Source of the DNA: a virus
Length of the DNA: 38,796 nucleotides
Virus record (IMG/VR): IMGVR_UViG_3300037852_000072
Location: 1-38,796 of that record
Strand: one strand, 5' to 3'
Shown here: piece by piece, positions 734-18,210 of the stretch
Layout: each line of letters opens with the position of its first letter
Position numbering within the stretch: the first letter of the stretch is position 1
The notes under the pieces: generated by a model
Told to the model about the DNA's origin: nothing
Databases searched by the model: none
The model's input: the letters and a program-made list of their open reading frames with translations, nothing else
Program-made: the position numbers and the translations under genes

Positions 734-1063
734 TTAGTCCTGGATGCGAGCCGGGCGCCATCCGCCTTGGGCTCGGGCCGGGGGTATTGAGCCCCGCGCT
801 TTGTCCCCGGAACACGCCGGGCCGCGCGATCTTTTGTGGATGGCTCTGTCGGCGGTCTCGCCGGGCTGGAAATCGTGCGTTGCCTTTGGACGGCTTCCGC
901 CATACTTACTCGGCAACGGATTGGGGGTTTCCTTGTCCACTGCATCCCCAACCAGCGCCGGCAGGAGTCGCATCCTGGCCGGCGCACCTTTTTTCGGCCG
1001 GACAGGCTTTGCAGGCAACGCACGCTGCTTCTCGATCAGCCAGCAGACGCGCCGATAGCCCAT
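734..1063 (-). CDS. Small basic protein, unknown function
   Basis: A 109-residue reading frame starts at an ATG that overlaps the stop of the preceding 818-residue gene (TAATG), the same arrangement used by its upstream neighbours, so translational coupling supports it. The product is rich in Arg, Lys, Pro and Gly, with no membrane segment and no motif I recognise; the N-terminus (MGYRRVCWLIEKQ) is the only amphipathic helix. Two copies of an 11-bp repeat (GGCAACGCACG) fall inside it, in opposite orientations. It lies between the ejection proteins and the tail fibre, so a minor virion part or a lysis-related protein are both possible. The composition is unusual enough that a non-functional frame cannot be excluded. 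Confidence 0.5.
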   Translation of the reverse strand: MGYRRVCWLIEKQRALPAKPVRPKKGAPARMRLLPALVGDAVDKETPNPLPSKYGGSRPKATHDFQPGETADRAIHKRSRGPACSGDKARGSIPPARAQGGWRPARIQD

Positions 1064-3519
1064 TACTGGCCGCCGAAAGCCGTGGCAGGATTTGGCGCTC
1101 GGTCGGGGGGCTGTTCGCCCTGGCGCCACCAGAAACCGGCACCCTGCTTGGCGGCATTCTTCTGCGCGCGATTGAAGGATTGCCGATAGTTCGGGTCGAC
1201 CAAAACCTGCATCTTGTCCCAGAGCAGACGGTCGACAGCGAGCTTTGTGTACCAAGTCTGCGGCGTCCAACGCTTGCCCATCTGGAACGCCTGATTGCCG
1301 AAGGTTTGGCGGCCGGTCTGGTCAAGCTGCTGCCGGATTGGCGAGGTAATCAGGGAAGCCGTATCGCCGACGAGGCCGGGGATCGGCCCCGCCATCTGGG
1401 CGGTTAGATTGAGCCCGCCGCGGTCACCATGCAGGCCGGCCGAGAGAATGTCGCCATAGATGCCGCCGGCGCCCCCGCGAGCAAACGCTTCGACCCAGAA
1501 CTTGGGATTGGCCATGTCGAGCGGGTCTTTGCCAGCGATCACCGCCGCAGCCTGTAGCGAGACCGCACCGGCCGCCATCGACAGCAGCGTGAAGGCCGCG
1601 CCGCGCGCCACGCGGTTCTCAATCGGGCCGTCGACCAGAACGCGCATCAGGTGCGTGGTCATGCGCTCCATGACGAATTGCTTGTACTGGCCCATCGATA
1701 GCCACGCCTCGCCGGCTGCCGTGCCGCGCACCGCGCCGCCCTGCATGATCGCCTGCGTGCGAATATCGGGTTGATGAAAGGCATAAGAGCCCTGTTCCTT
1801 GATCGCCATCATCAGCCGATCGGCGAGCGCCGGTTCGATCTTGGTGGTGTCGAGATAGCGCGCGCCGCTTGAAGCGACGAACGGATCGACCGCGCGGATT
1901 TTGTTCCAATCGTCCGGGGTGAAGCCATAATAGCTCAGGAAATGATCGCGGAACGCTGGGTCGAGTTTATCGAACGCCTGACCGCGCATACCCTCGATCT
2001 GGTTGAGCATAGATACCTGCCAGCCGAGGCGCCCGTTCGTTGTCCACATATCCGCGCCGGTCGCTTTTACCACGCCGCGCGAGACTTTGCGGATCAGGCC
2101 GGACACATTGATCTGGTCCTCATACTTGCGGACGTAATTGTTGATGAAGTCCATGTAGCCGTGCGAACTGATCTGCAGATGCTGTGCGACCTCCCGGCTC
2201 AGCTTGCCGTCGAATACCTGCGCCAGCACCTTGAAACCTGACATGCCGAGGAAGTTGGACGCCATCAGCGTCATGGCGGAATCGCCAGGGATGATCGTGA
2301 TCGGCAGATTGCGCAGCGAGGCCATGCCTACCATATCGCGGGCGCCGGACATGATGCGGGCAAATGTCTGATTGCCGACCGGATGACCGCGCCCGCTGAT
2401 TAGATCGTAGCTGTGTTGCAGCGTATTTAGGCTGGTCATGAAGCCACTGCCCTTGACCGGCGTAGACGGATCGTCCTTGACCAGCCGCATTGCCGCGGCA
2501 AACAGCGCGTCGGGATGCGCGCCGAAAGTCTCATGCAGCGCAATCGAGCGCGCCATATGCTCGACGTGATTGCTCACCGCCGCCATGATCTCGTTGCCGA
2601 CGCCGTACTTGGCCTGCAGCTTGAGCCACGATGCCGCGCCCTGCTCGCCCGGCTGGAACTCGAATGTGCGGCCTTCCTTGGAGAACGGCACATCGCCGCC
2701 GCCTTCGGTCTTGATGTCCGAATAGGCTTTTTTCAGTATGTCCTCGTAGCGCGCGGCCGTGGCGTAGCGATTGGTTTCCTTGTCAAATAGCTTGAGGCCA
2801 CCAGACGAAATCTGGGCCATGTGGTCTTTGATGTATTCGGCCTCGGTCTGCCGCGCGACCTGTTCTGGCGTCCAATGCTGCATCAGCCGCCAATCTTCCA
2901 GTTCGTTGAAAATCTTGCCAGCCGCCTTGGCGCGATCAGCGCCCGCGTCGATCATCTTCTGAAAGCCATTCGATACCGCCTTGGCCGCGCCATCGCCGGT
3001 ATCGACGCCAAATCGTTCGCGGATGAAATTACGGGTATGGTCGACTAGCTCTTGACCTTTGAACCAGCCGGATTTGAACTTGTTGAGTTCCGGCCCCATC
3101 ATGGCGAATAGCTTGTCGCGAATGACCGAGGCGAGATAATCGACGTTGCCATCCTTGAATATCGGATGGTCCGGTTCGGCCTTGCGCAGCGCCGCAAGCC
3201 GGTTGTCGCCGATCAGCGTGTCCTTACTGACGATGCCGGCCAGCGCAGCATTACGCCCGCGCGGATCATCGACGATGCGCTTCTCGATTGTCTGCCAGCG
3301 CTTCACATCGGCGGCGATGGCTATCTGATTTTGTATCGCCTTGTCCTTCATCTTCTTGGCGGTTTCGAGCGCTGCGGCAGCATCGGCGCTCGCGGGGCCG
3401 GTCTCGCGCGAATACTCGGCGCGGCTGCGCTTGAAGAACTCAATCGCTTCATCGCCAATAGCGCGGCTAATCGTCTTGGCGATAACGAGTTTTTCAATGC
3501 ACTCTGCTACGTCAGCCAT
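1063..3519 (-). CDS. Internal virion protein (large ejection protein, T7 gp16 position)
   Basis: This 818-residue protein is mostly helical, with charged repeats in the first 250 residues and a C-terminal hydrophobic, Gly/Ala-rich part (about residues 630-700, including LLSMAAGAVSLQAAAVIAG) that could enter a membrane. I chose ATG 3519 because it overlaps the stop of the preceding gene (TGATG); a frame 13 codons longer exists but begins inside that gene. Size, order and composition match the third and largest internal core protein of T7-like particles, which is ejected with the DNA to form the channel across the cell envelope. No enzymatic motif is visible here; the lysozyme domain is on a neighbour instead. 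The ejection role is inferred from position and architecture. Confidence 0.75.
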   Translation of the reverse strand: MADVAECIEKLVIAKTISRAIGDEAIEFFKRSRAEYSRETGPASADAAAALETAKKMKDKAIQNQIAIAADVKRWQTIEKRIVDDPRGRNAALAGIVSKDTLIGDNRLAALRKAEPDHPIFKDGNVDYLASVIRDKLFAMMGPELNKFKSGWFKGQELVDHTRNFIRERFGVDTGDGAAKAVSNGFQKMIDAGADRAKAAGKIFNELEDWRLMQHWTPEQVARQTEAEYIKDHMAQISSGGLKLFDKETNRYATAARYEDILKKAYSDIKTEGGGDVPFSKEGRTFEFQPGEQGAASWLKLQAKYGVGNEIMAAVSNHVEHMARSIALHETFGAHPDALFAAAMRLVKDDPSTPVKGSGFMTSLNTLQHSYDLISGRGHPVGNQTFARIMSGARDMVGMASLRNLPITIIPGDSAMTLMASNFLGMSGFKVLAQVFDGKLSREVAQHLQISSHGYMDFINNYVRKYEDQINVSGLIRKVSRGVVKATGADMWTTNGRLGWQVSMLNQIEGMRGQAFDKLDPAFRDHFLSYYGFTPDDWNKIRAVDPFVASSGARYLDTTKIEPALADRLMMAIKEQGSYAFHQPDIRTQAIMQGGAVRGTAAGEAWLSMGQYKQFVMERMTTHLMRVLVDGPIENRVARGAAFTLLSMAAGAVSLQAAAVIAGKDPLDMANPKFWVEAFARGGAGGIYGDILSAGLHGDRGGLNLTAQMAGPIPGLVGDTASLITSPIRQQLDQTGRQTFGNQAFQMGKRWTPQTWYTKLAVDRLLWDKMQVLVDPNYRQSFNRAQKNAAKQGAGFWWRQGEQPPDRAPNPATAFGGQ

Positions 3520-5477
3520 CAGGCGGCCTCTGCTTCTGGCGCGACCGGCGCGGCGCAAGCCTGGATTTGCTCGGCGGCAGCCTGATAGCCTTCGACTTCT
3601 CTCATGGCGGCATCGACGCTGCGGAATATCGGCTCGCCGTTTTCATCCTTGCCAATTGGGATTTTCACGTCGCCTAGCATCCTGGCGCGGTCAATATCGG
3701 CCTGCAATGCCTCGACGTGCTGCGGCGATGCAATCGTTTCGGCACGCTGTTCGGCAGTCTGCAATGGCGCCGTGGCTGCCACTTCTGCATCTAGCCTGCG
3801 CTGCGCTGCAAAGTCTGCCGCACTTGGCAGTGTGTCGTACAGCGTTCGCGGCCGATCGGTGACTTGGTTGAGGATCGCCATTGCTTCGCTGTCGTCCTTG
3901 GCATTGGCGACGCGGCGCGCAAGCCCCAAGGTTTCATAGTCCGGCATGTCGTGGCCGCCGAGTTGCCCCAGCGCGTGAATGCCATCTGAAATCGCGTCAA
4001 CATGATAGGTGTGCAGCAAGTCAAATGCGCCGGCCTTGAACGGCAATTCTCCTATCGCCGTTGCCTGCGCGCGCTCGGCGGCGGCCTGATCGGCGACAAC
4101 GCCAGCGCGCCCGCGCATGGTCATAAGGCTGTCGATGCGGCCTGTATGGATGTCGAATAGCGTTGGCCGCACTGGCGATGTCTGGCCGAGCATTGCCGGC
4201 GGTTCGGTCGGCGTGAGGCTGCTGCGCTGGGCTTCAATCTCATTCAGTCGCGTACCGATTTGCGCCTGTTCGACCTCAAGCGCACGACGTTGCTCAAGCG
4301 GCGCTGCGGCGGTGCGTAAGGCTTCCGGCGACGTGTCGATAAGGATTTGATCGCGGCGCTCGTTGAGCGCACGTCGGGTCGCCGGGTCGGTCGCCTCGGC
4401 AATCTGATTGTCGACTGCCTGCAACCGATTAAGCCGGTCGGCCGCAGATATATCGCCCTGTGGCAGCGCGCCAAGTTGCGTGTCGATATGACCGGAACGC
4501 TCGCGCAATTGCGCTTCCTCGGAGATAAGCCGGATGGTCTGCTCGTCCATGACCGGCAGGACGAACGGCCGTTCGGCTTGCAGGCGCCCGACAAGCTCGC
4601 GGCTCGCGGCAGCCACATCGACCGGCAGGCCGCCGAGGATTTGATTGATCGCAGTCGACAAGGATTCGCGGTGCGCGGCTTCGCCTTCGACGCCGGGCAG
4701 CACATTCGATTGCGAGATATTGGCTTCGCTCTCGACCACGTTGCCGGCATCGCGCACCGACTGCGGCCACTGGCCGGTCTTAACGCGCGTCCAGAGATTG
4801 CCGAGCGCACGGAAGCCGCCGCCCAGCACAGCGCCGCCAAGGCCAGCTTCGACCACATTGGCAACCGGCTCGCCGGACATGGCATAGCCTGGCTGTACGC
4901 GCTCGCGAAATCCGGCATTGACTCCCTCGTTCACGCCTTGCGTGACGACGCCAAAAGTGCCCCATGCGGCGGCGGACGCTAGGATGCCGCCCTCGACTTC
5001 CGGCGCGAGGGCCAATCCGACAAGATTGATCGGGTCGGTTACGCCAGCCGCCAAGCCGCCAAGGAACAGTCCGGCGCCGCTATGCTCGCGGCCGACAGTC
5101 TGCATGTAGCGTTGTCGTGCCTGTTGCGACGCAACAATGGCGCGGTGGTCCAATTCGTCATCGGTCAAATCGGGAATGGTCATCAGGCCGGGATTGGCGG
5201 CCTTCATCTTTGCGACGGTGTTACGTGCAGCCGTCAGCGGGTCGGCATCGGCATAGACCTGCCGGCGGATGTCCTCGCCGCTCGCGTTCTTCACGTCCTC
5301 AAGGTATTGGTCGAAGCCTGCCGCCTGCGCATTGCCATGGGCGAGCGTGTCGCTGAATAGTCGGCCTTGCTGCCAAGCCGCGCTGAAACTCTCGCCGAAG
5401 TCGGCCGGCAGTTCACGCCCTTCATTGGTTTGCGGGCGCGCAGCCACATCGGTATTATTCTGCCACAGATCGAGCAT
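3519..5477 (-). CDS. Internal virion protein (ejection protein, T7 gp15/gp16-like position)
   Basis: A 652-residue protein whose ATG (5477) overlaps the previous stop, in series with its neighbours. Residues 134-183 (GAGLFLGGLAAGV onward) and 205-228 (VVEAGLGGAVLGGGF) are Gly/Ala-rich hydrophobic stretches typical of ejection proteins that insert into the host membrane. Residues 290-420 are Gln/Arg/Glu-rich and probably coiled coil. The C-terminus is again helical and Ala-rich (ends PVAPEAEAA). The gene sits between the lysozyme-bearing ejection protein and the 818-residue one, so these three together with the 164-residue gene probably form the inner core. No catalytic motif is visible. Confidence 0.75.
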   Translation of the reverse strand: MLDLWQNNTDVAARPQTNEGRELPADFGESFSAAWQQGRLFSDTLAHGNAQAAGFDQYLEDVKNASGEDIRRQVYADADPLTAARNTVAKMKAANPGLMTIPDLTDDELDHRAIVASQQARQRYMQTVGREHSGAGLFLGGLAAGVTDPINLVGLALAPEVEGGILASAAAWGTFGVVTQGVNEGVNAGFRERVQPGYAMSGEPVANVVEAGLGGAVLGGGFRALGNLWTRVKTGQWPQSVRDAGNVVESEANISQSNVLPGVEGEAAHRESLSTAINQILGGLPVDVAAASRELVGRLQAERPFVLPVMDEQTIRLISEEAQLRERSGHIDTQLGALPQGDISAADRLNRLQAVDNQIAEATDPATRRALNERRDQILIDTSPEALRTAAAPLEQRRALEVEQAQIGTRLNEIEAQRSSLTPTEPPAMLGQTSPVRPTLFDIHTGRIDSLMTMRGRAGVVADQAAAERAQATAIGELPFKAGAFDLLHTYHVDAISDGIHALGQLGGHDMPDYETLGLARRVANAKDDSEAMAILNQVTDRPRTLYDTLPSAADFAAQRRLDAEVAATAPLQTAEQRAETIASPQHVEALQADIDRARMLGDVKIPIGKDENGEPIFRSVDAAMREVEGYQAAAEQIQACAAPVAPEAEAA

Positions 5478-8400
5478 TACGGACTCACGGTCGGCGGCGC
5501 ATTCTCAATCGCCAGCGGCGCCGGGGCACGTCCGCGCAGATCGAGCACAAACTTGCGGTCGCCTTGATAGGCATAGATCGGCGCCATCGGATCGCGGCCG
5601 AGCTTCACGAAATAGCGGCCGTCACCGACGCTTTCGAGTTGCGCATTGCCGCGCAGATATTGTGCTGTGACCGGCGCGCCGCTGAGCGTCGTCACTCCAT
5701 TGCCGCGCATAGAAAGGAACTGCTGCGTGTCCTTCTCCATAAACTCGTGCATCTTGTCGTATCGCGCTTGGGCCTCGGCCTCAGTCGCATACGACGGAAA
5801 CTTGTCGAGACCTTCCTGCCGCGCTCGCGCGATTGCCTCGTCGGACTTCAATATCTTGCCGTCATAAACGGTAGGAATGCTGTAGGTCTTTCCATCTTGT
5901 TCAAACGTCAACTGGAACAGCGATGAGCGGCTACCGTTTGGATTGTCGACACCGCCCGGTCCAGTCAGATTTGTTAGGTGCCGCTGATACAATGCTGTCT
6001 CTTGCGGCGTCAGATTGAGCGCTGCTTGCGCCGCTGCCAGATTGGACTTGATAGCGCCGTGCCCAAGATCGGCATCGGTTATCCCTTGCAGCACGCCGTC
6101 GAATTGCCGCTGCGTCATGCCACGCACAGGCGCGATGAAGTCGCCGCCGTTGTGCGAGAGAATACCACCGGTAACGTCAGTCACGGCTTGCTCTAGCCGC
6201 GCCTTGTTGTAGGTCGTCTGGCCGGATTGAGCGGATAGGTCCGCATAGCGCGCCTTAACCATATTGGCCGTGGTCGCATAGGCGCCGGCCGGGTCGGTGC
6301 GATCCTGCAGGGTGAATACGTTTGCCGGGAGCACGCGGTCGAGATCAGCGCGATAACTTTGCTTGGTCTCGCCCTGTTCATGTTCGGGATCGTAGCGGCT
6401 ATCGGTTTTCATGGCCGCCTGACCGCGGAAGATCGAGGCACCAATATCGGGCGCGGTCGCCATCAGCGAGCCTGCCGCCGCTTCCGCCATGCCTTGCGGC
6501 TCACTGCCGCCGAGCTTTTTCAGCGTCGCCGCGCGTACATCCTCGGGCAGCGTGGCGATGGCGCCGTAGATGCCGGCCTTGACTGCCGGATCGGGATTGG
6601 CCAGCGCCGCCTTGACCTGTACTACGTCTTGCTTGTCGAGCGCAGATAGTGGGCCAGTCTGCCAATTCTGTGCAGCAACTTGTGCGATCTGACCTCGCAT
6701 GGCGAGACCCGCCACCAGCTTTTGCGGATCGCTAAAGTCCAGTGGGGCAGGCGTCTTGAACTTGTCGGGAAAGTTTGCGACGGCGGTGGCGATAGGATCA
6801 TTTTCCAGCCCATTGGTGATGGCTTTGGTACGGGCGGTTAGTTGCTTTTCGATCAGTTCGGCGCCGGGCGTGGCCGTGCCGGCCGCCAGCCGTCGGCGCA
6901 ATTCGAGTTCGGTTGCCGCTTGCTGAGCCACAGGCAATTGCGAAATCCGCTGCACCTTGTCGATGATGTCCATGTCGTGAGCGACTTTGGCCTGCAGGTC
7001 GACATTCTTTGTGGCCCGTGCCGCGTCCAAAATCTCGTTCACCCGACCGGGTGAAGGACCGCCGCCGCGGCCGGCCGCCCAATCGTCGGTGATCTGCTTC
7101 CAGGCCCGCGTGGCGGTGTCGTCGACCGTCGCCGTCCGGTTTGCGATGAGCCAGGATTGGACGCCGGGACCGCCGCTGCCGTCCGTAGCACTGCCCTGGA
7201 ATACCGACCGGGCGAGCGACTGCCGCGCCTGGAAGCCCAAAGATGCGGCCGGATTTTCCATGGTGTATCCGGCAGGCCGCTCGTAATGAACGAATGCCTG
7301 GGCTGCTTCCTCGGGCGTGCGCGCCGCCTGCAGCTTGGCCAGGGTTCCGGCTTCGGTCCCATGCAGTTCGCGGTCGATAAATTCGAGTTGGGTCTGAAAG
7401 TCCGTTGCCGGCTTGCCGACCGATTTGGCGTAATCCCGCAGTGCAGCAAGACGCTCGGCATGAAATTGGGCGAGGCCAAATGCCGACCCTGCATCGCCCG
7501 TAATACCGGGACGCAGCCCGGATTCATGGATCAGATTGCCCACGATGCCCGATGCCTGTTCGGCTGTATAGCCGCGACCCATGAAGAACCGCAGCGCTTG
7601 CTTGGCCGCTTCCGAGCCTCTAATGGCATTTAACTGATTGGTCTGATCGCCGAGCGGTTGCCGACCGAAATCGTCATGCAAATCCTTGTGGGAGAACGCC
7701 GCGTCGACCATGGCAATGCCGGCCGGATAGCCAGCCGCCTTGAATGCCGAACGAACGCTTTCGACCTCATCGGGCGTGACGGATTGGCCGAGTTGCGAGG
7801 CGACAGATAGTTGTCGGAACGCCTCGCGCGCCTGTCCAATATCCTGCCGCCGAATGGCCTCGTTGGCGCGTATCTCGCCGATCGAGCGGGCATAGAAGCC
7901 CTGCCGCTGCGCCTCGGTCAGCTTGTAATCAGGGTTGCTCAGGATGTCCTTGGCCGCTGCCTCTGCCGCCTGGAATCCTTGCGTCTTATAGACCTGATCG
8001 ATGTGGTAGAGATTGCGTTGGCCGGCGAGCTCACCCTGGAAATGTTGAATGTCGAGATCGTGCTGCTCTTGCGTGTAGGCAAGTCGCGGGTTTTTCAGCT
8101 TCTCATCAAGCAGCGTCGTGTATTTGTCGAGCGCCTGCTTCATCGCCGGATCGTTCGGATCGGCACCGCCGCGCGCCAATGCCATCGCATCGTCGCTCGC
8201 GGAATTGACGCCGGCCGTGATCGCGCCATCGGCACGCTGTAAATCCAGCCGCTCTTTTTCATTGAGCAGTCCGCGGTAGGTCAGCGTGGTCTTGCCATCG
8301 ATCGCGCGGCCAAGCGCGTTGCCGACTTCTGGGCCGGCAGCCGCGGTCATTTTTTGAACTTGATCCTGCTTGAATGCAGTTGCTGCTCGTTCATAACCTT

Positions 8401-8746
8401 GCGGATTGTCACGAAACTCTTGACGCATTTCGATGTCTTTGCGCTCGGCCGCACCATCCGCTTCCGCAAGCGCCGCGACTTTCATGGCCCGCGCGTAGGC
8501 CGCACCGGCAAGTCCAAAGATTGGCATATGCTCGACCTGGATATTGCCATCGGCATCGCGTGTGACGGCTTGCGCACCGGCGCGCTCCGCAAGCGGCACC
8601 GCGACCGCTTCCAATCCCTCGCCAGCCTTATCGAGTCCGCGCGCCAGCTCGGAATAAGGCTGCGCAATCTCAGCACTACTCAATGCCGAGCGCGGCGCCT
8701 CGCTGGTAACAACCGGCATCGGCCGGATGGCGATGACATCAGCCAT
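5477..8746 (-). CDS. Internal virion protein with lysozyme/transglycosylase domain
   Basis: A 1089-residue protein. About residues 380-495 look like a tail-associated lysozyme: ALRFFMGRGYTAEQASGIVG, then NLIHESGL with the likely catalytic Glu408, then GSAFGLAQFH and a helical end with AFVHYERPAGY. This arrangement matches the phage tail lysozyme family (lysozyme2 type), whose members open peptidoglycan during DNA entry. A second recognisable block near residues 935-990 (YSIPTVYDGKIL and, further on, FPSYATEAEAQARYDKMHEFM) is shared by many podovirus internal proteins. The N-terminal 370 residues are helical repeats. In T7 the corresponding murein hydrolase sits at the start of gp16; here it is in the middle of a separate protein. 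The start overlaps the preceding stop (TAATG). Confidence 0.85.
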   Translation of the reverse strand: MADVIAIRPMPVVTSEAPRSALSSAEIAQPYSELARGLDKAGEGLEAVAVPLAERAGAQAVTRDADGNIQVEHMPIFGLAGAAYARAMKVAALAEADGAAERKDIEMRQEFRDNPQGYERAATAFKQDQVQKMTAAAGPEVGNALGRAIDGKTTLTYRGLLNEKERLDLQRADGAITAGVNSASDDAMALARGGADPNDPAMKQALDKYTTLLDEKLKNPRLAYTQEQHDLDIQHFQGELAGQRNLYHIDQVYKTQGFQAAEAAAKDILSNPDYKLTEAQRQGFYARSIGEIRANEAIRRQDIGQAREAFRQLSVASQLGQSVTPDEVESVRSAFKAAGYPAGIAMVDAAFSHKDLHDDFGRQPLGDQTNQLNAIRGSEAAKQALRFFMGRGYTAEQASGIVGNLIHESGLRPGITGDAGSAFGLAQFHAERLAALRDYAKSVGKPATDFQTQLEFIDRELHGTEAGTLAKLQAARTPEEAAQAFVHYERPAGYTMENPAASLGFQARQSLARSVFQGSATDGSGGPGVQSWLIANRTATVDDTATRAWKQITDDWAAGRGGGPSPGRVNEILDAARATKNVDLQAKVAHDMDIIDKVQRISQLPVAQQAATELELRRRLAAGTATPGAELIEKQLTARTKAITNGLENDPIATAVANFPDKFKTPAPLDFSDPQKLVAGLAMRGQIAQVAAQNWQTGPLSALDKQDVVQVKAALANPDPAVKAGIYGAIATLPEDVRAATLKKLGGSEPQGMAEAAAGSLMATAPDIGASIFRGQAAMKTDSRYDPEHEQGETKQSYRADLDRVLPANVFTLQDRTDPAGAYATTANMVKARYADLSAQSGQTTYNKARLEQAVTDVTGGILSHNGGDFIAPVRGMTQRQFDGVLQGITDADLGHGAIKSNLAAAQAALNLTPQETALYQRHLTNLTGPGGVDNPNGSRSSLFQLTFEQDGKTYSIPTVYDGKILKSDEAIARARQEGLDKFPSYATEAEAQARYDKMHEFMEKDTQQFLSMRGNGVTTLSGAPVTAQYLRGNAQLESVGDGRYFVKLGRDPMAPIYAYQGDRKFVLDLRGRAPAPLAIENAPPTVSP

Positions 8747-9240
8747 TATGCCGCCTTTTGTCCGGATGCCGCCTTTTGTCCGGGCGCCCCTGGAATGAGG
8801 CCAGCTACGCCTTTGAGCAGAGCGCTGCCGGCGCCAAGTTCGCCGCCTAGCAGGGCATCGCTGCTGGCGCTGCGCAGATAAGCGGCATCGGCTTCACTCT
8901 GCCGCGCCTGTGCCAGAATGCTGTCGACTTGAATATTTTTCCGTTCGGTCTCGGTCTGCTCGGTAAAGTCGCGCACTGCCGCGCCAGTCGGTGAAGTCGG
9001 ATCGGTACGGGCCGCGGCACGCACGGCGTCAATGTTACCAAGCGTGATCGACAGATTGCGCGTCAACTGCGCATTGGTCTGCGTGGCTTTCAATTCGCCG
9101 TATTGCGCGGCGCGGTCCAGTTCCGCGGCCTTGTATTGATCGGCGCTCGCCGTGCCCTTGGCGCTTTCCAGCGAGCCCGCGGCGGAAAAACCCATCGAGG
9201 CCAGCGAGAGAATGGCGGCCGGTCCTGCTGCTACGCCCAT
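8746..9240 (-). CDS. Small internal virion protein (T7 gp14-like position)
   Basis: This 164-residue protein opens with MGVAAGPAAILSLASMGFSA, a hydrophobic Gly/Ala segment, followed by a long helix with Gln/Ala repeats (SADQYKAAELDRAAQYGEL). That is the usual layout of the smallest ejection protein, which in T7 (gp14) goes to the outer membrane. ATG 9240 overlaps the stop of the nozzle gene (TAATG); an upstream in-frame start would lie inside that gene. The C-terminus ends in a duplicated hexapeptide (GQKAAS, GQKAA) encoded by two perfect 18-bp repeats. Confidence 0.7.
   Translation of the reverse strand: MGVAAGPAAILSLASMGFSAAGSLESAKGTASADQYKAAELDRAAQYGELKATQTNAQLTRNLSITLGNIDAVRAAARTDPTSPTGAAVRDFTEQTETERKNIQVDSILAQARQSEADAAYLRSASSDALLGGELGAGSALLKGVAGLIPGAPGQKAASGQKAA
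8748..8783. repeat. Two tandem 18-bp repeats
   Basis: The unit ATGCCGCCTTTTGTCCGG occurs twice head to tail (8748-8765 and 8766-8783), encoding the doubled GQKAA at the end of the small internal protein and part of its stop codon. Slippage during replication is the likely origin. Confidence 0.85.
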
Positions 9241-11597
9241 TAGATGCTGGCCTCCAATCCAAATTCGTGAACGACGAGCGGCCCAGGGGTGTCTTTGATA
9301 ACGCATACCCGCGGATCAAAAGCCCGACCAAGCGGTCGCCAGCGCTCGGCTTCTTCGCGCAACGGCGGCGGCAACGTCGGATCGTCGTCCTGATTCCATG
9401 TGGTGATGCGGTATTGGTTCATCACTGTGCCGAGCGCTGGCCCCCCTGGGCGCTGGCGGCCAGCAAACAATCGTGCCATCAGAAACCCGGTTGAATTCGA
9501 CACATAAACCGCCATGCGCGATACACGACGCGGAAACATGCGCTGATGCACGCTCTGACCCGGCGAGGCGTCCGGCACGAACGGTTCCAGCGTCGCATTC
9601 CAGGCTTGACCGGCAATGAGTGTCGCGGCATTCAAATTCTCGCCGCCGTTGTTCTGCGGAATGATGAAGCCGTTGGCGTCGACGGTGTAGGTGCCCATCA
9701 TGCGGTAGCCCTGATCCATCAACGTCACGGTGGAGTTCGGGCCGGGAAAAACGTACAGCGGCCCCTTGCCACCAGGTGGGGCAAAGGGTGCCGGCAGACT
9801 GTTCACCGACAAGGCGCCGTCGAGATATTGCGTGGCGTCCAGTTTTTCGACGATGCTCACCGCCGTCACGCCATTGGGTGCGTAGCTTGTCGTAAAAATT
9901 ATGTCGCCGCCCTGTGCCGAGACCCACTTGTCGGTCTTGACCGGCCCGTGGCCGAGCCACGGCAGCCAGCCGATCTTGGGCTTGCCTTCCGGGCCGACAT
10001 CGAGCAGCCCCTGCTTGATGGCGTAACGGCCGACGATGCAGTCGCCACTGGCCAGCAAAATGAAGGCGTATAGTTCCTCGAATTGCGATGGCGCCTGCTG
10101 CACGGCGATGGCGATGGCCGGCGATGCCGTGAACAGATGCGAGTGGAATTCCGACACGTTGTCGACGATGTGCGGCCGGTAATAGGCGCCCGGCGTCTGC
10201 ACTGCCGCGACCTGAGTGCCACCGGCTTTCATGTAGAGGATCGATTGTCCAGCCGGCTGCGGGCGCACGTTCGGCATACAGCCTTCGCTACTGAGAAGAT
10301 TGAACGAGACAGACCCCGGCACAAGCGGATTTTGCGCAGTGATCGGGATGTATTGGACATTCTTATCGGTAAAGACGAATTCCGACGATTCCATGCCGGG
10401 CACGACAAACAGGATTTGCACTTTGCCTGGCGCGAGTTCGAAGATCGCATCGTCCGGTAGCGCGTCGATCAAAAAGTCGCTGGGCAAGCCAATGGCAGAC
10501 CACGCAATGGCGCTCGGCACGGACGGAAAGTTGCAAAAACCAAGCCGGCCCTGATCGTAGAACACCGAAGTAGGATAGCCACGAAAAAGGTTCATGACCT
10601 CGTCGTCCCAGATTGAAACGCCGCCGGGCGGCCCGAACGATTGAGAGGCACCGAGAGTTGCCGCCCAAGATGGCCCGGTAATAATCTCATTGGGAGCAAA
10701 CGAAAAAACTGTCGCATTCGCCGCAGAGCCTATCGGAATAAGCTGTACGGCAATATTCACGGAAGTCACGGCGAGAATGATGCCATGGGCGCTGGACGTT
10801 GCCCCGATTATTTCATCGCCAACGCTGGCAACGCCGACAGTGCTACCGGCCGTCGATACCGTCATAGTAGCCGCCATCGTCTGCTCGATTGTCGCCGTGA
10901 CGTGCGTGCTATCGGTAAATGCGGTAATCAGAAATTGCCGGCCTAGATATTGCATTCTCGTGCCGACCATCCCCGCGACAAATAAGGCCGACGATGCGGT
11001 TACGGTCGTGCTGGCGCCAGCCAGTCCGCTACCAAATGACAGCGTGATACCGATCGGCGATATGCGGTAAAATAACGTCTGCTTTTGACCTCCGGCCGTA
11101 ATTGTTTCAGCATATGTCGTGAGTGTCCATGTGCTGGTTTGCGATATGCCATCCCAGCTCAGGACTTGCGGCACATTGAGCGGGGCACCATCGCCGTAAG
11201 TGATATAGATCGACAGCGCCGAGCCGGCTGCCACGACAAAGACAATGTTCTTGACCGTCGCCGTCGTCCACGGAATGTTGGTCGCGCCGTCGCCTTTTTT
11301 GGTTGAATTGAAAACCTGTGTTCCGGCAGCATTGCGAATCCGCAGATAGCCGTTGCCGAAGATCAGATAGAACACGTTCCCCGGCGACATCAGCACTTCT
11401 TCGACGCGGCCGGTCTCGGGGAACAGCGCCGTGCGGCCGGGACGATTGGTCGCCGCACCGGAATTGAGAATGCGCCAGTTGGACGCCTGCCGCGCGCCGA
11501 TCTTCATGATCGGGTTTTCGTCGGCACGCTTCATGGCAACGTCGAGTTCGCCGCCCGAAAAGTCCCGCTGTGCGCCTACGATTTTTGCTATGGCCAT
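9240..11597 (-). CDS. Tail tubular protein B (tail nozzle, T7 gp12-like)
   Basis: A 785-residue beta-rich protein. The N-terminus has the nozzle signature: FSGGELDVAM, then GARQASNWRILNSGAATNRPG and an R-x-A-L-F-P-E-T stretch. Other recognisable parts are the FRGYPTSVFYDQGRLGF block near residues 340-360 and TDKNVQYIPITAQNPLVPGS near 410. In T7-like phages this hexameric protein forms the distal tail tube and carries the fibres. It lies directly behind tail tubular protein A, as in T7. The start ATG 11597 is 9 nt after the stop of protein A. There is no signal peptide, unlike several neighbours. Confidence 0.85.
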   Translation of the reverse strand: MAIAKIVGAQRDFSGGELDVAMKRADENPIMKIGARQASNWRILNSGAATNRPGRTALFPETGRVEEVLMSPGNVFYLIFGNGYLRIRNAAGTQVFNSTKKGDGATNIPWTTATVKNIVFVVAAGSALSIYITYGDGAPLNVPQVLSWDGISQTSTWTLTTYAETITAGGQKQTLFYRISPIGITLSFGSGLAGASTTVTASSALFVAGMVGTRMQYLGRQFLITAFTDSTHVTATIEQTMAATMTVSTAGSTVGVASVGDEIIGATSSAHGIILAVTSVNIAVQLIPIGSAANATVFSFAPNEIITGPSWAATLGASQSFGPPGGVSIWDDEVMNLFRGYPTSVFYDQGRLGFCNFPSVPSAIAWSAIGLPSDFLIDALPDDAIFELAPGKVQILFVVPGMESSEFVFTDKNVQYIPITAQNPLVPGSVSFNLLSSEGCMPNVRPQPAGQSILYMKAGGTQVAAVQTPGAYYRPHIVDNVSEFHSHLFTASPAIAIAVQQAPSQFEELYAFILLASGDCIVGRYAIKQGLLDVGPEGKPKIGWLPWLGHGPVKTDKWVSAQGGDIIFTTSYAPNGVTAVSIVEKLDATQYLDGALSVNSLPAPFAPPGGKGPLYVFPGPNSTVTLMDQGYRMMGTYTVDANGFIIPQNNGGENLNAATLIAGQAWNATLEPFVPDASPGQSVHQRMFPRRVSRMAVYVSNSTGFLMARLFAGRQRPGGPALGTVMNQYRITTWNQDDDPTLPPPLREEAERWRPLGRAFDPRVCVIKDTPGPLVVHEFGLEASI

Positions 11598-11606
11598 GGG
11601 CTACCC

Positions 11607-12344
11607 CTAGCCTGGGATGCCCGAATTACTCCAACCGTCGATACCGATCTGCGGCCACGGCCGGCGCACGCGGCGCGACGCTTCGATGCGCGAGTTGAAG
11701 AACTGCCGCTTGGGCTTCTGCTGGTCGTAGCGGGTGCGCGCAAGCTGCAGCATCCGCTCGCCGGCCATCCACATCTTGTCGCCCTCGGCTGTGTCCTCGT
11801 GCAGCCCGCGGTAGATGCCGGACATGACGAAGGACTGCAGCGCCAGGATCAGCGTCGGCGTGCCGTTCTGCACGTCGGTCAGCGGCCCGGAATTGGAGAT
11901 ATATTTGAGCATGATGGTCGACGGCGTGACGGTGCCGGCCGGTGGCGGGGGCGGCCCGCCCTGCGCATTGCAGACGATGACCGGCCCGGTCGGGGTGCCC
12001 ATGATGTCGTAGAGCACCGGCTGCGCGGTGGTCTGGCTGACCGGATCGTTCACGTCCTGATTGATCTTGAGCCAGACGATATGGACCAGATCGCTCGGGA
12101 TCGGATAGGCGGTGTCCCAATCGGTGTCGCTCGGCGCCGTCGGGCTCGGCTGCAGCGTCACTACCAGGGCGGCATAGCCCCAACTGTGGCTTTCCATGGC
12201 AAAGCCGAGGCCGCGGTCATAGGCCGGCGAGCAGACGTTCCACTCGTCGCTTCCGTCATCCGCGACAGCGATAGTATTGTCGCCACAACTTACAAGAGCA
12301 GAGTTGAGAAGCGTCAATTTATCAATAGGAAAGGGATATGACAT
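11607..12344 (-). CDS. Tail tubular protein A (adaptor, T7 gp11-like)
   Basis: A 245-residue protein whose ends match the adaptor family: an N-terminal helix (DKLTLLNSALVSCGDNTI) followed by DEWNVCSPAYDRGLGFAMES and the aromatic HSWGYAA, where T7-like adaptors have a conserved W. The C-terminal half has a helical block (SFVMSGIYRGLHEDTAEGDKM, then ARTRYDQQKPKR) that would contact the portal. Its middle holds a Pro-rich insertion (GGPPPPPAG). It forms the ring between portal and nozzle. The order A then B on the minus strand agrees with the cassette. Confidence 0.8.
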   Translation of the reverse strand: MSYPFPIDKLTLLNSALVSCGDNTIAVADDGSDEWNVCSPAYDRGLGFAMESHSWGYAALVVTLQPSPTAPSDTDWDTAYPIPSDLVHIVWLKINQDVNDPVSQTTAQPVLYDIMGTPTGPVIVCNAQGGPPPPPAGTVTPSTIMLKYISNSGPLTDVQNGTPTLILALQSFVMSGIYRGLHEDTAEGDKMWMAGERMLQLARTRYDQQKPKRQFFNSRIEASRRVRRPWPQIGIDGWSNSGIPG

Positions 12345-12411: not shown

Positions 12412-12566
12412 TCCCTTGACCCATGAGCTATTAAATGCGCACGGCGCCAGCGCAGCCGTTTAGCGCTCACGCCCACATAGCGCTTGCCATTCATCCGATT
12501 CGTGGCGGCACCCCAGGCAGAAACTGCACCACGATATTTTTTGAACGTCATGGTGTCGGTCGCCAT
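12408..12566 (-). CDS. 52-residue protein resembling a GIY-YIG nuclease fragment
   Basis: ATG 12566 overlaps the stop of the fibre-like gene (TAATG). Residues 21-45 (ATNRMNGKRYVGVSAKRL and on to RWRRAH) resemble the core of GIY-YIG nucleases, where N-x-x-N-G-K-x-Y-[IV]-G-x-[ST] is followed by R-W-x-x-H. The normal family domain is about 90 residues, so the catalytic C-terminal Glu region is absent. The first GIY part is also poor (AVSAWGA in place of GxIYxI). I read it as a decayed or minimal homing endonuclease between two virion genes; the alternative is a chance likeness in a small basic protein. Confidence 0.5.
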   Translation of the reverse strand: MATDTMTFKKYRGAVSAWGAATNRMNGKRYVGVSAKRLRWRRAHLIAHGSRE

Positions 12567-13720
12567 TAGCTGGCTGGGTAGATGATAAAGATGGTGATGA
12601 CTTTAAGACTTAGGGTTGCGTTTGTGACTGCGCCTGCCGCGCCGGTTAGAAACTGCGCAGTCGATGTATTTATGATCGCCTGTGGAATGGCATTCACAGT
12701 TCCAACAACAGTGCCGCTCACTTTCGCATATGACTGATTGGGGACAGCCACAGGCAACGAAATCTTGGATTGAGTAGCGTCAGCCGTGCTAGGGTACGTA
12801 AGAGAACCATAAACAAAGACAAGATTTCCAATCCTGCAAAACTGCGCATTAACTGCGGTAAATGTAAGACTTGCACCACTCTGATCGGTCGGCGTCCACG
12901 CGGCACAAACAGTTGAGCCGGCTAGTGGTGCTGGATTGATCGAAAACTGCGTATAAGTCAGAGGATCGGTCCCAACCGTCGCCACCGCAGACGTGAGCAG
13001 CCACGACGTGGTGCCGTTCACCGTTCCATTGACTACCGGAATGGCCCCGGTGTTGTTGATGTCGCTCGGCGCATCGTAGTCGAGTGCACGCGTCAGGATC
13101 GGCGGCAGGATGCCGGTCTGCAATTGGGTGACGTAGTAGATGCCGTTGAACGCGCCAGAGGGGGATTGCGTGTCGTTCTTGATAAGCACGCGCTGATTGA
13201 GTGCCGTAAAGGTGAAGCCATCGACGGCAAAAGCGGTGTTGACCGAGCCCGTAAAAAACGCACCGATGCCCGCAGCGCCGTTGTTATAGGTCAACCCGCT
13301 GGTGTCAGAGGCTTGCGTGGTTGCGGCCTGCACGGCGACCGCTGGATTTACACCCGCGACAGCGTTAGCGACCGCCGTAGTGACGAAAGCTGTAGTGGCA
13401 AGTTGCGTCGTATTTGTTGCCGCCGCCGCCGTTGGCGCGGCGGGGGTGCCGGTAAAAGTCGGTGAGGCGAGCGGTGCGGCACCAGTAATTCGACTGTCGT
13501 TGCCTTGTGCTGCGGTATTGGCGCCCGTGCCATAAGTGACTGAGATTGCGCCGGCCGTATTGGTGATCGTCGTGCCGTCCGGCTTGACGCCGCCGAGCGT
13601 CGATGAAGTGGCTGCGGGCAGCGTGTAAGATGAACCGCCACCACCCGGCAGCACGACTTGCGCCGACGCGGACGCGCCGATTAGGCAGGCCAGCGCGATA
13701 ACGATTACTCGTCGCATCAT
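12566..13720 (-). CDS. Fibre-like protein with signal peptide
   Basis: A 384-residue protein. Residues 1-21 are a clear Sec signal (MMRRVIVIALACLIGASASAQ). The mature part begins with a low-complexity Gly/Ser/Thr stretch, contains the collar repeat SPTFTGTPAAPTAA and TTQLATTAFV common in phage tail fibres, and a beta-rich C-terminus with FNGIYYVTQLQTG near the middle. Two Cys remain after the signal. The start pair ATGATG overlaps the previous stop (ATGA). A second side fibre or a head or tail decoration are both possible; the signal peptide is unexpected for either. Confidence 0.7.
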   Translation of the reverse strand: MMRRVIVIALACLIGASASAQVVLPGGGGSSYTLPAATSSTLGGVKPDGTTITNTAGAISVTYGTGANTAAQGNDSRITGAAPLASPTFTGTPAAPTAAAATNTTQLATTAFVTTAVANAVAGVNPAVAVQAATTQASDTSGLTYNNGAAGIGAFFTGSVNTAFAVDGFTFTALNQRVLIKNDTQSPSGAFNGIYYVTQLQTGILPPILTRALDYDAPSDINNTGAIPVVNGTVNGTTSWLLTSAVATVGTDPLTYTQFSINPAPLAGSTVCAAWTPTDQSGASLTFTAVNAQFCRIGNLVFVYGSLTYPSTADATQSKISLPVAVPNQSYAKVSGTVVGTVNAIPQAIINTSTAQFLTGAAGAVTNATLSLKVITIFIIYPAS

Positions 13721-14145
13721 TGGAAGTCAGCCGAGATTGCGCCGGTATCGGTTCCGGTGGTGTAAGTGTACGGCGTGGTTGCGCTGGTCATCAGGATCAC
13801 GATGCCGGCTGAATAAAACGCCGCCATCGGAATACGACTGAGCGAGCACCCCCGCGCACTGGTGTCGAAATAGCACCAATCAAGCACCAAAGAGCCGGTC
13901 AAAGCTCCGGTGCCCGGTGCTGCGGTGCCGTTATAGGCAATGCAAAACCCGGCCGCGCCGCCGGCGATGCCGGTGCAGTTGAAGCCAAGCAGAGAGCCAG
14001 GGGTCGCTTTCGCCACAAGCGATGTGCCGAGCGCCGTTGTCGCGGCGTGATTGGTCGCGGCCTGCGCGTGCGCGGCGGTCGGCGCAAAGAAAAGCGCCGC
14101 AGCGAAAGCCGCAGCGCGAGTTAGCATGGGCGACTGTAACCACAT
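13717..14145 (-). CDS. Secreted-type small protein in the virion cluster
   Basis: A 142-residue protein with an N-terminal signal (MLTRAAAFAAALFFAPTAAHA is its core, starting at residue 7; ATG 14127 is the alternative start). The mature part holds four Cys (FNCTG, GFCIA, DWCYF, RGCSL), a number that fits two disulfides, and ends in a beta-rich region (YSAGIVILMTSAT). I do not know a function. It is followed by the fibre-like gene with a 4-nt overlap. AGGGAG lies about 10 nt before ATG 14145. Confidence 0.7.
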   Translation of the reverse strand: MWLQSPMLTRAAAFAAALFFAPTAAHAQAATNHAATTALGTSLVAKATPGSLLGFNCTGIAGGAAGFCIAYNGTAAPGTGALTGSLVLDWCYFDTSARGCSLSRIPMAAFYSAGIVILMTSATTPYTYTTGTDTGAISADFQ

Positions 14146-14160
14146 GCGGGGAGGTCTCCC

Positions 14161-14835
14161 TTATGTCATCGTCGCGGCGCCGTAGGACGACACTTCATCC
14201 CAATCGATTGAGCAGGCCCAATTCCAGGTGCCGGTCGCCGGAACCGTCGCCTGAATGACAAAGCCCTCGCCAGTGCCGGCAAAGACGAGCGGCCAATCGC
14301 CGGGGACGGCACGATAGACTTCCGTGTCGCCGACGATCGAAATGAAGGTGCCGGTGCCGACGCCGTTCAAGAGCGTGCGGAACGGATTGGCGTCGAGCGT
14401 GCGCGTGCCGGCCGTCAGCGTCGCAGTGGCCGATGCCTGAATGGCCGCCTGTGTCGTGGCAAAGCTGGTGCGCGCCTTGGCGTTGTTGGTCGTGAGCGTG
14501 ACCGCAGCGCCGCCGGTATCCTGCACCGTGAACGCGCGGGCGATCAGAAAATCGAATTTGACGGTGCCGGCGGTAAATCCGGTGCCGAGCACGTTGGCAG
14601 TGAACTTGATGCGTCGGATCAGCGCCAGCGATGTAAGCACAACAGCGGGTTTCCACAGAAACGCAAGGATCGGCGCAGCGCCGCCCAAGCCGGCCGCCAT
14701 CGTGCCGCTGACGACGCTGGCGCTGTAGGAGCCCTGCGCGCCAACGTCGTTGGGCCGCAGCACGGAGCGCTGCGCGCGCGTATTGGTTTCGACCTCGTTT
14801 ACGGTCCCGCCAACACCTTGCAGTTGGGTCGTCAT
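14161..14835 (-). CDS. Conserved phage virion-cluster protein, unknown function
   Basis: A 224-residue Ala/Thr/Val-rich beta protein without signal peptide. It contains SVLRPNDVGAQGSYSASV and MAAGLGGAAPILAFLW, a middle part with KFDFLIARAFTVQDTGG, and the ending EGFVIQATVPATGTW followed by the acidic SIDWDEVSSYG. I recall this overall pattern from uncharacterised genes between capsid and tail genes in rhizobial prophages. AGGAG stands 9 nt before the ATG. A surface or head-fibre role is possible but cannot be read from the sequence. Confidence 0.7.
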   Translation of the reverse strand: MTTQLQGVGGTVNEVETNTRAQRSVLRPNDVGAQGSYSASVVSGTMAAGLGGAAPILAFLWKPAVVLTSLALIRRIKFTANVLGTGFTAGTVKFDFLIARAFTVQDTGGAAVTLTTNNAKARTSFATTQAAIQASATATLTAGTRTLDANPFRTLLNGVGTGTFISIVGDTEVYRAVPGDWPLVFAGTGEGFVIQATVPATGTWNWACSIDWDEVSSYGAATMT

Positions 14836-14846
14836 ATTTCAATCTC

Positions 14847-15350
14847 CTATGGCGAGAACGCCCAAGCCACGTTCCATTTGCCGTAAGGCATGGGGTCTGG
14901 CGGGATCGGTGAAGTCAGGCCCGGCCGCGGTACGCCGGTAATCACGACATTGCCGTTGCCGTCCGCATAACCGGAAACCTGCGGCGCATCGGCGATATGC
15001 TCGTCGATGCTGTGATCGGCGGTGGCGGCCGGCAAAATCCACGCATCGACAATCGCATTCGGATCGCCGGCGTCGACGGCAGGCACCAATGTCTGCGCCC
15101 AGTCCGAGCCAGGAAAGGCGCCGAAGTCGATAAGCGCAGTGCCGGAGGTCGGCGACGTGCCGCCGCCCGAGCCCGGCTGCCAATAGGCCCAGCCCTTTGC
15201 GGTGAAATACGGCGCGTCCTGCACATCGACGGTCACGCGGCCAAGCTGATCGATGCTGTAGCGCTTGCCCGTGATCGGGCCGGTCGCGCCTTCGGCATGA
15301 CCGCCGGCCCCGGTAAATCCCCTGATGCGCTGCAGCGTGACGGTGGCCAT
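14847..15350 (-). CDS. Probable virion protein with two beta domains
   Basis: I start this 167-residue protein at ATG 15350 (MATVTLQRIRGF), 8 nt after the previous stop, with TAAGG before it; a longer frame would enter the preceding gene. The N-terminal part ends in KRYSIDQLGRVTVDVQDA and FTAKGWAYW, a small head-associated fold seen in other phages. After a Gly/Ser linker, the second part (ALIDFGAFPGSDWAQTLV, then DAWILPAATADHSIDEH) resembles a domain common in minor virion proteins. The exact role is unknown. Confidence 0.65.
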   Translation of the reverse strand: MATVTLQRIRGFTGAGGHAEGATGPITGKRYSIDQLGRVTVDVQDAPYFTAKGWAYWQPGSGGGTSPTSGTALIDFGAFPGSDWAQTLVPAVDAGDPNAIVDAWILPAATADHSIDEHIADAPQVSGYADGNGNVVITGVPRPGLTSPIPPDPMPYGKWNVAWAFSP

Positions 15351-15357
15351 CTGCGCC

Positions 15358-15951
15358 TTAGAAGTAAGAGTAGAGGATTGTGATGTTGATCGAGCCGGAA
15401 TTGCACGACGTATGGCAGGCGACCAGGATTTGGAATGCAGCCGGCGCGCCGGAATTGGCATCCAGCCGCGTCAATGCCGAATCGGCGACTGTCACCGTGG
15501 CATTGGCGCCGAGCGCAACAGCGGAGGCATATTCAGTTGCCGAAGTGGAATCGCCGATGTCGACGCCGCCGGTGATAGAATGGCCCGCCGTCTCAGCCAG
15601 CACGACCATGGTGATGACGGCGCTGGCCGGCAGCGTGATCGTCGAGGTCGATGACGTGGTCGACGCCGTGATGCCGGTCTGGATCAGCGTGAAGGTATTT
15701 GGGCCATAGGTGAAACCCTGAGACAGCGCCCAGCCGACATCGCCGGACGCGATCAGCGCGCAGCCGGCGCCGTTGAGACTGTAGGCGACATTGGTATTCG
15801 GATTGACGATGCGCTGCGGCCCAGCGGCCCCGCCTGCCGGGCGTGGCTGGCAAAGCCAGGCATGAGCGGTCTGGGTCGAAGCCGCCGCATGGGCGGGCAG
15901 CGACGCCAGCACCAGCGCCAGACCGAAAACAAACGATGCAATGCGCTTCAT
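15358..15951 (-). CDS. Secreted-type virion-cluster protein
   Basis: A 197-residue protein starting at ATG 15951, which overlaps the previous stop (ATGA). Residues 1-22 are a textbook signal peptide (MKRIASFVFGLALVLASLPAHA). The mature part has four Cys (WLCQP, AGCAL, and a C-x3-C pair in VACHTSC), then Thr/Ser-rich beta strands, and ends in an aromatic run (ILYSYF) as many membrane- or trimer-assembled beta proteins do. No known family is recognised. It shares the even-Cys, signal-bearing form with three other genes here. Confidence 0.7.
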   Translation of the reverse strand: MKRIASFVFGLALVLASLPAHAAASTQTAHAWLCQPRPAGGAAGPQRIVNPNTNVAYSLNGAGCALIASGDVGWALSQGFTYGPNTFTLIQTGITASTTSSTSTITLPASAVITMVVLAETAGHSITGGVDIGDSTSATEYASAVALGANATVTVADSALTRLDANSGAPAAFQILVACHTSCNSGSINITILYSYF

Positions 15952-16758: not shown

Positions 16759-17241
16759 TCAGACCTCCGGCAGAACGGCGAAGAAGCCTTCGATGCCGAT
16801 CGAAGGTCCGGTGCCGCCGACGATGACGTAAACCGCCGCGTACTGGTACAGCGCGCCGGCCACATTGGTTGAGAACATGATCTCGTAGCGGCCGACCACT
16901 GCGGCCTGGGCGTTGACGATGTCGCCGGTATTGGCCGCGGCCAGATCGAGGCCGCCGGCATTGACGACCTTGCCCGCCGGAAACGTCGGATCGTTGGAGA
17001 GCACGACGCGGATTTTGTAGCTCTCGTCGGCGGTGGCGATGTTGAGCGCTGTCACGTCGACCACGGCAACTGCGTCGATGCGCGCCTGTTGCGTAGGCGT
17101 GGTGCCCTGGTTGCCGCCGAGATCGACGATGCCGTTGGCGCCGAGCGATTGCGTGTAGCCGTTGGCGGTGATCGCGGCGGCATTGTCCGCGAACTGCAGA
17201 TTTACGTCGAAAGTGTATGTGCGATCATTCGGGAAGGACAT
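16759..17241 (-). CDS. Capsid cement/decoration protein (Bbp16-like)
   Basis: A 160-residue beta-rich protein directly after the major capsid gene. The end (GRYEIMFSTNVAGALYQYAA followed by VYVIVGGTGPSIGIEGFFAV) resembles the Bordetella phage Bbp16 capsid cement protein, whose members have Y-E-I-x-F near a Y-x-R-x-Y strand and a short Gly-rich turn. It would stabilise the shell from outside. AAGGAGACACC precedes the ATG with ideal spacing, suggesting high expression, as expected for a particle component. Confidence 0.65.
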   Translation of the reverse strand: MSFPNDRTYTFDVNLQFADNAAAITANGYTQSLGANGIVDLGGNQGTTPTQQARIDAVAVVDVTALNIATADESYKIRVVLSNDPTFPAGKVVNAGGLDLAAANTGDIVNAQAAVVGRYEIMFSTNVAGALYQYAAVYVIVGGTGPSIGIEGFFAVLPEV

Positions 17242-17250
17242 GGTGTCTCC

Positions 17251-18210
17251 TTATGCGACGATCGGCGCGTTGGTCCAGTCATCGAGCCGCGCGATGCAGT
17301 ATTTGTGCTCGTCGACCATGCCAACATCCCAATTCAAGTGGGTGCGGTAGGTCTTGCCGTCCTGCAGCAAGCCGATGTCGCGCGCCTCCATCGGGCGCAA
17401 CTGCAAGCCGCGAAGGCGCTGCTCGCCGAGCGACACGACGTAGAGCGACGCGGTGACAGCCGTGCCGCCGCCGGACGCGACCTCGTTGAAGTCGAGCATG
17501 TAGGGATGGTCGTCCTTCGGGTAGCCCCACAGGAACGGCAGGCCAGCGTAGGACGCCTTCAAACCGCCGACGCCGGCATTGCCCGACACGTCGAAGTCCT
17601 GCATGACGAAGCCGGAGAGCGACGTGGTACGCGCCAACTGAATCCACAGCGGACGCGACAGGTACGGCGCGATGATGTGGGTCGGCCGGTTGACCGCGTT
17701 GATCGCCTTGTCGAGATTGGCGAGCGACAGCGCGGCGCCGCCGGAAACGGTCGAATTGTGGATGTCGCGCGAGTATTTGTTGGCGCGAACCTGCAGGCCG
17801 TTGAACACCCGCGCATTGGTCGACTGATCGCCCTTGATGACGGTGGTGGCGAACAACTGGCCGAAGCCAGTCATGCCCATCATTTCCTCGTAGTTGCGCC
17901 GCTCCGGACCATGGCGGTCGACGATGGCGCGGTCCACGTCGATGTCATGGTCGACGATGGCGGTGTTTTCCTGCAGCGGCGTGATCGTGCCATGCCCGCT
18001 GGACGACGCCTCGTTGATGGCGCGGAACTGCGGCGTCGGCAACACGGCCTGCCGGTAATAGACGAACACCGAGCCTTTCAGGCCCTCGAACGGCAGCGCG
18101 TCGAACAGATCGGTCGACTTCGCGAACATTTCGATTGGCGGCCGGCGGATGTCCTCCTTGGCCATCGACTTCGCGTATTCCGCGATCGTGATCAGATTCG
18201 AGACAGCCAT
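17251..18210 (-). CDS. Major capsid protein
   Basis: A 319-residue protein in the expected place between scaffold and cement genes. The N-terminus (SNLITIAEYAKSMAKEDIRR) matches capsid proteins of the BPP-1 type, which are HK97-fold proteins of about 330 residues. It continues with the long strand region PFEGLKGSVFVYYRQAVL, an E-loop-like Gly/Ser region near residue 70 and an acidic C-terminal strand (GMVDEHKYCIARLDDW). No prodomain or protease is obvious. A GGAAAGGG sequence is 9 nt before the ATG. Confidence 0.8.
   Translation of the reverse strand: MAVSNLITIAEYAKSMAKEDIRRPPIEMFAKSTDLFDALPFEGLKGSVFVYYRQAVLPTPQFRAINEASSSGHGTITPLQENTAIVDHDIDVDRAIVDRHGPERRNYEEMMGMTGFGQLFATTVIKGDQSTNARVFNGLQVRANKYSRDIHNSTVSGGAALSLANLDKAINAVNRPTHIIAPYLSRPLWIQLARTTSLSGFVMQDFDVSGNAGVGGLKASYAGLPFLWGYPKDDHPYMLDFNEVASGGGTAVTASLYVVSLGEQRLRGLQLRPMEARDIGLLQDGKTYRTHLNWDVGMVDEHKYCIARLDDWTNAPIVA

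Follow-up and report, generated by a model that had tools for sequence, protein, structure and literature searches.

Predicted export of the tail fiber, a cement-like protein, and accessory late proteins in a podovirus lineage with relatives integrated in Bradyrhizobium

The cytoplasm is regarded as the place where tailed-phage particles are completed, and T7 gp17-type fibers of podophages (HRP29 Gp44, P-SCSP1u gp28, and Kp7/Kp9), in which an N-terminal docking domain is followed by a helix and the fiber or tailspike, carry no signal peptide. The fiber described here has the same architecture, but a predicted signal precedes the docking domain, and most members contain 6-20 Cys, nearly always an even number. 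Signal-less relatives of this fiber, from Microcystis phage Mwe-JY08 and loci L107, L118, and L143, share the docking domain and gene neighborhood, start at the docking domain, and contain 3, 9, 13, and 0 Cys, respectively; no signal-bearing accessory virion genes were seen in the late regions of the phages of L107, L116, and Mwe-JY08. Ig-like capsid cement proteins are known from cyanophage Pam1, Ralstonia phage GP4, and KHP30. The C-terminal domain of a second protein considered here (gA) matches them by fold, and that of Pam1 also by profile, whereas gA is extended by a further N-terminal domain, in which a Cys pair is invariant, and bears a signal peptide. Inovirus (Ff) pIII and pVIII are virion proteins with signal peptides, inserted or exported before assembly; however, inoviruses are extruded and their coats are membrane-anchored, whereas this phage has a tail and its signal-bearing proteins, once mature, look soluble. 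No description of exported fibers or decoration proteins of tailed phages was found in the accessible portion of the open-access literature.

The window (the whole stretch of DNA analyzed) is a 38,796-base IMG/VR record. An initial annotation had claimed signal-like starts and even cysteine numbers for four of its late genes; all four lie on the minus strand, at exactly the coordinates it gave. The features are as follows.

1..547, minus strand: tail fiber, N-terminal part, cut by the contig end; signal, QAPPAVGALPD, and a T7-fiber-like docking domain with a CxC pair
473..547, minus strand: predicted fiber signal peptide (Sec or Tat type) of 25 residues (MKPLRRTIAALSLLWVALSPLAAIA, cleaved before Q), with twin Arg
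1063..8746, minus strand: internal virion proteins (5477-8746, 3519-5477, and 1063-3516), no signals; Phage_lysozyme2 domain in 5477-8746
9240..12344, minus strand: tail tubular proteins (11607-12344 and 9240-11597), no signals
12566..13720, minus strand: putatively exported tail-fiber-like protein; predicted signal of 20 residues (MMRRVIVIALACLIGASASA, cleaved before Q), 2 mature Cys, tail-fiber PHROG repeats; its start overlaps the upstream stop
13717..14145, minus strand: putatively exported small protein; predicted signal of up to 27 residues (MWLQSPMLTRAAAFAAALFFAPTAAHA, cleaved before Q), 4 mature Cys; translation more likely starts at a second Met, at codon 7
14161..14835, minus strand: neighboring late protein, no signal, 1 Cys
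14847..15347, minus strand: neighboring virion-region protein, no signal, no Cys
15358..15951, minus strand: putatively exported cement-like (decoration-like) protein gA; predicted signal of 22-24 residues (MKRIASFVFGLALVLASLPAHA(AA), cleaved before S), 4 mature Cys
16759..17241, minus strand: conserved protein directly after the capsid gene, no signal, Cys-free
17251..18210, minus strand: major capsid protein (PHROG major-head-protein family 212), no signal, related to the capsid proteins of BPP-1 and epsilon15

The phage is a podovirus of a short-tailed soil lineage, relatives of which are integrated in Bradyrhizobium. Related records share a late order of terminase, portal, capsid, small proteins, the gA family, a variable block, tail tubular A and B, internal virion proteins, and the fiber; the number of signal-bearing genes in the variable block ranges from zero to five, and their mature parts are of many unrelated kinds. 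Since the contig ends inside the fiber gene and longer relatives measure 44-49 kb, the window is probably incomplete. The fiber and gA of the window had no relatives among deposited phages by tblastn, the sole deposited-phage match being that of Mwe-JY08 to a divergent fiber domain, and no cultured signal-bearing member was found among 50,697 phage records; the search thus yielded no cultured member for which virion proteomics exist. Records of the lineage were mostly metagenomic, and a capsid scan of genome contigs gave no matches.

Signals were called with a home-made, rule-based scorer (not SignalP) for n-region charge, h-region hydrophobicity, and an AxA site. It passed 4 of the 22 late genes in the window, exactly the four named by the initial annotation, in each of which a basic n-region, a hydrophobic h-region, and an AxA-type c-region were present by these Sec/signal peptidase I rules. 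Among the core late genes of related loci, taken at their true starts, none of 253 had a signal; pass rates of the other controls were 0.2-0.4% (internal windows), 1.2% (antisense ORFs), and 10.7% (shuffled N-terminal 30 residues). Because start codons in the variable genes were chosen partly by signal score, the weight is carried by the core-gene control and the signal-less relatives. Signals and even Cys numbers were conserved in most homologues rather than absent from them, and, judged by these rules, the signals are a trait of the lineage, not chance. The trait belongs to each protein separately, since in some members the fiber bears a signal and the accessory or gA-like genes do not (L053/L104 and L010-L013). 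The signals differ in hydrophobicity, and some n-regions are weak. Twin Arg was found in 26 of 48 fiber signals, only 3 of which fitted a stricter Tat-like motif ([ST]RRxFLK-like). Lipoprotein signals were also considered and rejected: a lipobox with Cys at +1 was absent from all four signals in the window, and a single lipobox-like case (L104) appeared in the collected set (188 raw signals before filtering). In the accessory block of L049, a gene at 4815-5690 has a twin-arginine-like start (MITRRNLLRASLAAP...) and no match in Pfam. Exported small proteins of L057 (8156-8449) and L054 (8206-8505) have a GDVV(F/Y)(L/I)KSGG motif, DUF2158-like by eye.

Cysteine numbers in the mature parts were as the initial annotation had counted them, i.e., 2 (12566-13720), 4 (13717-14145), 4 (gA), and 2 (the fiber, cut by the contig end). 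The bias toward even numbers extended to the lineage: among signal-bearing mature proteins (<35% identity), 58 had an even number of Cys, 7 an odd number, and 5 none (p 2e-11), and with one protein per family the numbers were 33, 5, and 5, respectively. Core late proteins (23 even, 43 odd) and variable signal-less proteins (17 even, 19 odd) gave other distributions, and the Cys content was 1.74% in signal-bearing proteins vs 0.44% in core proteins. Two of the seven odd cases (L030 and L031) had a mis-set cleavage site; the others were a lipoprotein-like gene (L113), a gene of Mwe-JY08 lying outside the block (L042), a protein that looks membrane-bound (L091), and two fibers (L044 and L078). 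This pattern suggests that paired cysteines are under selection only in the signal-bearing proteins.

Searches with an alignment of the fiber docking domain yielded 54 viral-contig loci plus seven on bacterial contigs. Of these seven, six were from Bradyrhizobium, in line with the parallels in rhizobial prophages that the initial annotation had mentioned, and one was from a metagenome bin named Salinibacterium. After the removal of near-copies, a signal preceded 56 of 62 docking domains, nearly always with QxPPxVPxLPD following it; the six signal-less domains had a Met start near the mature start of the signal-bearing forms. In a maximum-likelihood tree, five signal-less fibers were outgroups, some on long branches, while L107 was nested inside the signal-bearing part, which suggests secondary loss of its signal. 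Every record with a match (24 of 24) contained one docking-domain fiber; thus, the exported protein is the only fiber of this kind available. Complete signal-bearing fibers had between 6 and 20 Cys, an even number in 34 of 35; the fiber of L044, complete and counted beyond those 35, had 17.

A model of the docking domain (pLDDT 67) was compared with PDB chains by Foldseek, and the four best matches were all podophage tail complexes (HRP29, LME-1, P-SCSP1u, and Kp7; E 0.0076-0.12, prob up to 0.98). At the sequence level, the T7 gp17 N-domain is homologous to HRP29 Gp44 and P-SCSP1u gp28, proteins from two of these entries. A direct profile comparison of the docking domain with T7 gp17 (hhalign) was not significant (prob 1.2% over 38 columns), and Pfam fiber models did not match the domain. 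By its modeled fold, the domain appears to resemble the docking domains of podophage tail fibers.

gA consists of an N-terminal domain with an invariant C..GC pair and a C-terminal Ig-like cement-protein domain; residues C34, Y57, G63, and C64 were kept in the alignment. The C..GC pair was present in all 34 distinct full-length signal-bearing relatives and in none of 28 signal-less copies of the domain (one of which, L061, is cut at its start); it was also absent from six further rows from the same signal-less proteins, which had been flagged because of a spurious internal start. In L014, gA-type domains with and without a signal stand side by side. For the gA model (pLDDT 84), the best fold match in the PDB was the Pam1 cement protein (E 1e-4), followed by R4C baseplate-tail and GP4 capsid chains, and the only PDB match of the gA profile was the same Pam1 chain ("Cement (decoration) proteins", E 0.0011). 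The GP4 paper (PMC9698820) describes such cement trimers on the capsid surface. By profile and predicted fold, gA thus resembles the capsid cement protein of Pam1. Tail complexes too can contain the Ig-like fold (8gtc), so that gA could be a part of the tail rather than of the capsid. The protein at 16759-17241 was tested as a paralogue of gA and is not one. That at 14847-15347 has a YSIDQLGRVTV..D..YF..KGW motif which, judged by eye, resembles that of the gA N-domain. In L010-L014, a three-repeat, Cys-free, signal-less relative of the gA N-domain follows the homologue of 15948-16391, in the place of the exported protein.

In the slot of 13717-14145, the signal was retained where the mature part had been swapped: the signal-coding DNA of L002 and L049 was 79-82% identical to that of the window, and the mature parts 23-28%. 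Between the fibers of L044 and the window, on the other hand, the docking domain was 81% identical and the signal 36%. These patterns indicate that the signal is kept as a type and not in its letters. A role in the virion is supported for the fiber by fold and for gA by fold and profile; the tail-fiber PHROG repeats of 12566-13720 weakly suggest one, and for 13717-14145 it is position that points to it.

We propose a split assembly route, which as a whole we regard as moderately probable. The core (capsid, portal, tail tube, and internal virion proteins) would be made in the cytoplasm without signals, and the receptor-binding fiber, the cement-like protein, and one to several accessory fiber-like proteins would be made with cleavable signals. 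The latter would cross the inner membrane, be cleaved by signal peptidase I, and form disulfides in the periplasm, and would dock onto completed particles once lysis by holin and endolysin has brought the contents of the periplasm and cytoplasm together. Export with disulfide formation is highly probable from the sequences; docking at lysis, which we infer, is somewhat favored. The distribution of signals, together with the docking fold of the fiber and the cement likeness of gA, suggests export of the likely outer parts of the virion but not of the core, and by analogy the signal-bearing parts would be those that are outside or last added in other phages. In other phages, preformed particles accept fibers, tailspikes, and decoration proteins in vitro (P22 gp9, T4 long fibers, Hoc/Soc, and phage L Dec), so that docking to complete particles is physically plausible. 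Among the three readings offered by the initial annotation, the best fit is the addition of proteins to the particle at or outside the membrane, because only likely outer parts bear signals and the exported fiber, the sole one of its kind in 24 of 24 records, keeps its docking domain. Assembly of the particle in the periplasm finds no support: capsid, portal, tail, and internal virion proteins all lack signals.

The remaining reading, placement on the host surface, belongs to a wider alternative in which the exported proteins do not serve the particle but stay on the host surface or in the periplasm, where they might mask receptors, exclude other phages, or act as decoys. It shares the evidence for export and disulfides, and the turnover of the accessory genes is rapid, as it is for genes of surface interaction; however, we consider it improbable, since the fiber retains a tail-docking domain, present once per record, that masking would not need, the signals in the window lack any outer-membrane targeting or anchor and any lipobox, the genes are part of the late virion operon, and gA is similar to a capsid cement protein. 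A similarly low probability is given to partial export, in which a cytoplasmic pool still bearing its signal enters particles and the exported pool has a second role. The timing of the burst could outrun the export machinery, and the variable hydrophobicity of the signals and the sometimes weak n-regions agree with this, but selection for even Cys numbers implies that the oxidized pool is the functional one, and the docking domain works without a signal in the signal-less relatives, so that an uncleaved one would be a burden. It is very doubtful that the Cys parity came from oxidation after release rather than export, with the hydrophobic stretch acting, e.g., as a membrane anchor: virions live in an oxidizing environment, but other late proteins, exposed ones included, have no even-Cys bias, the signal-less fibers have 0, 9, 13, and 3 Cys, and the AxA that terminates the stretch lies immediately ahead of the point at which the signal-less relatives start. 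Chance mimicry by Ala/Leu-rich N-termini of GC-rich genes, to which the 10.7% pass rate of shuffled N-termini of the same composition lends something, is refuted by conservation (0 of 253 core genes vs 56 of 62 fibers and 34 of 34 full-length gA) and by the co-occurrence of Cys, and its probability is negligible.

If split assembly is true, the last assembly step would be extracytoplasmic for the fiber of a whole lineage, fibers would become shareable goods, and disulfide-hardened fibers and tailspikes would be open to evolution. In its broadest form, in which all outer virion proteins pass through the periplasm, are oxidized there, and are mounted at or after lysis, with fibers exchangeable in trans between co-infecting phages or with fiber-carrying satellites, the proposal is evenly balanced. 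The even-Cys test can find further such lineages from sequence alone, and the Bradyrhizobium prophages, complete examples of which are L148 (strain Arg816) and L152 (strain 141), make the model testable in the laboratory.

Four Bradyrhizobium contigs (L146, L149, L150, and L151) combine an AAA_25 replication-type gene with a signal-bearing docking-domain fiber. No capsid, portal, or terminase matches were found in the 20 kb examined for each, and the four genomes, searched throughout, gave no tail tubular B of this type. An integrase was confirmed by Pfam in L149 and L150, and a homologue of an internal virion protein is additionally present in L146. These four are candidate fiber-carrying phage satellites.
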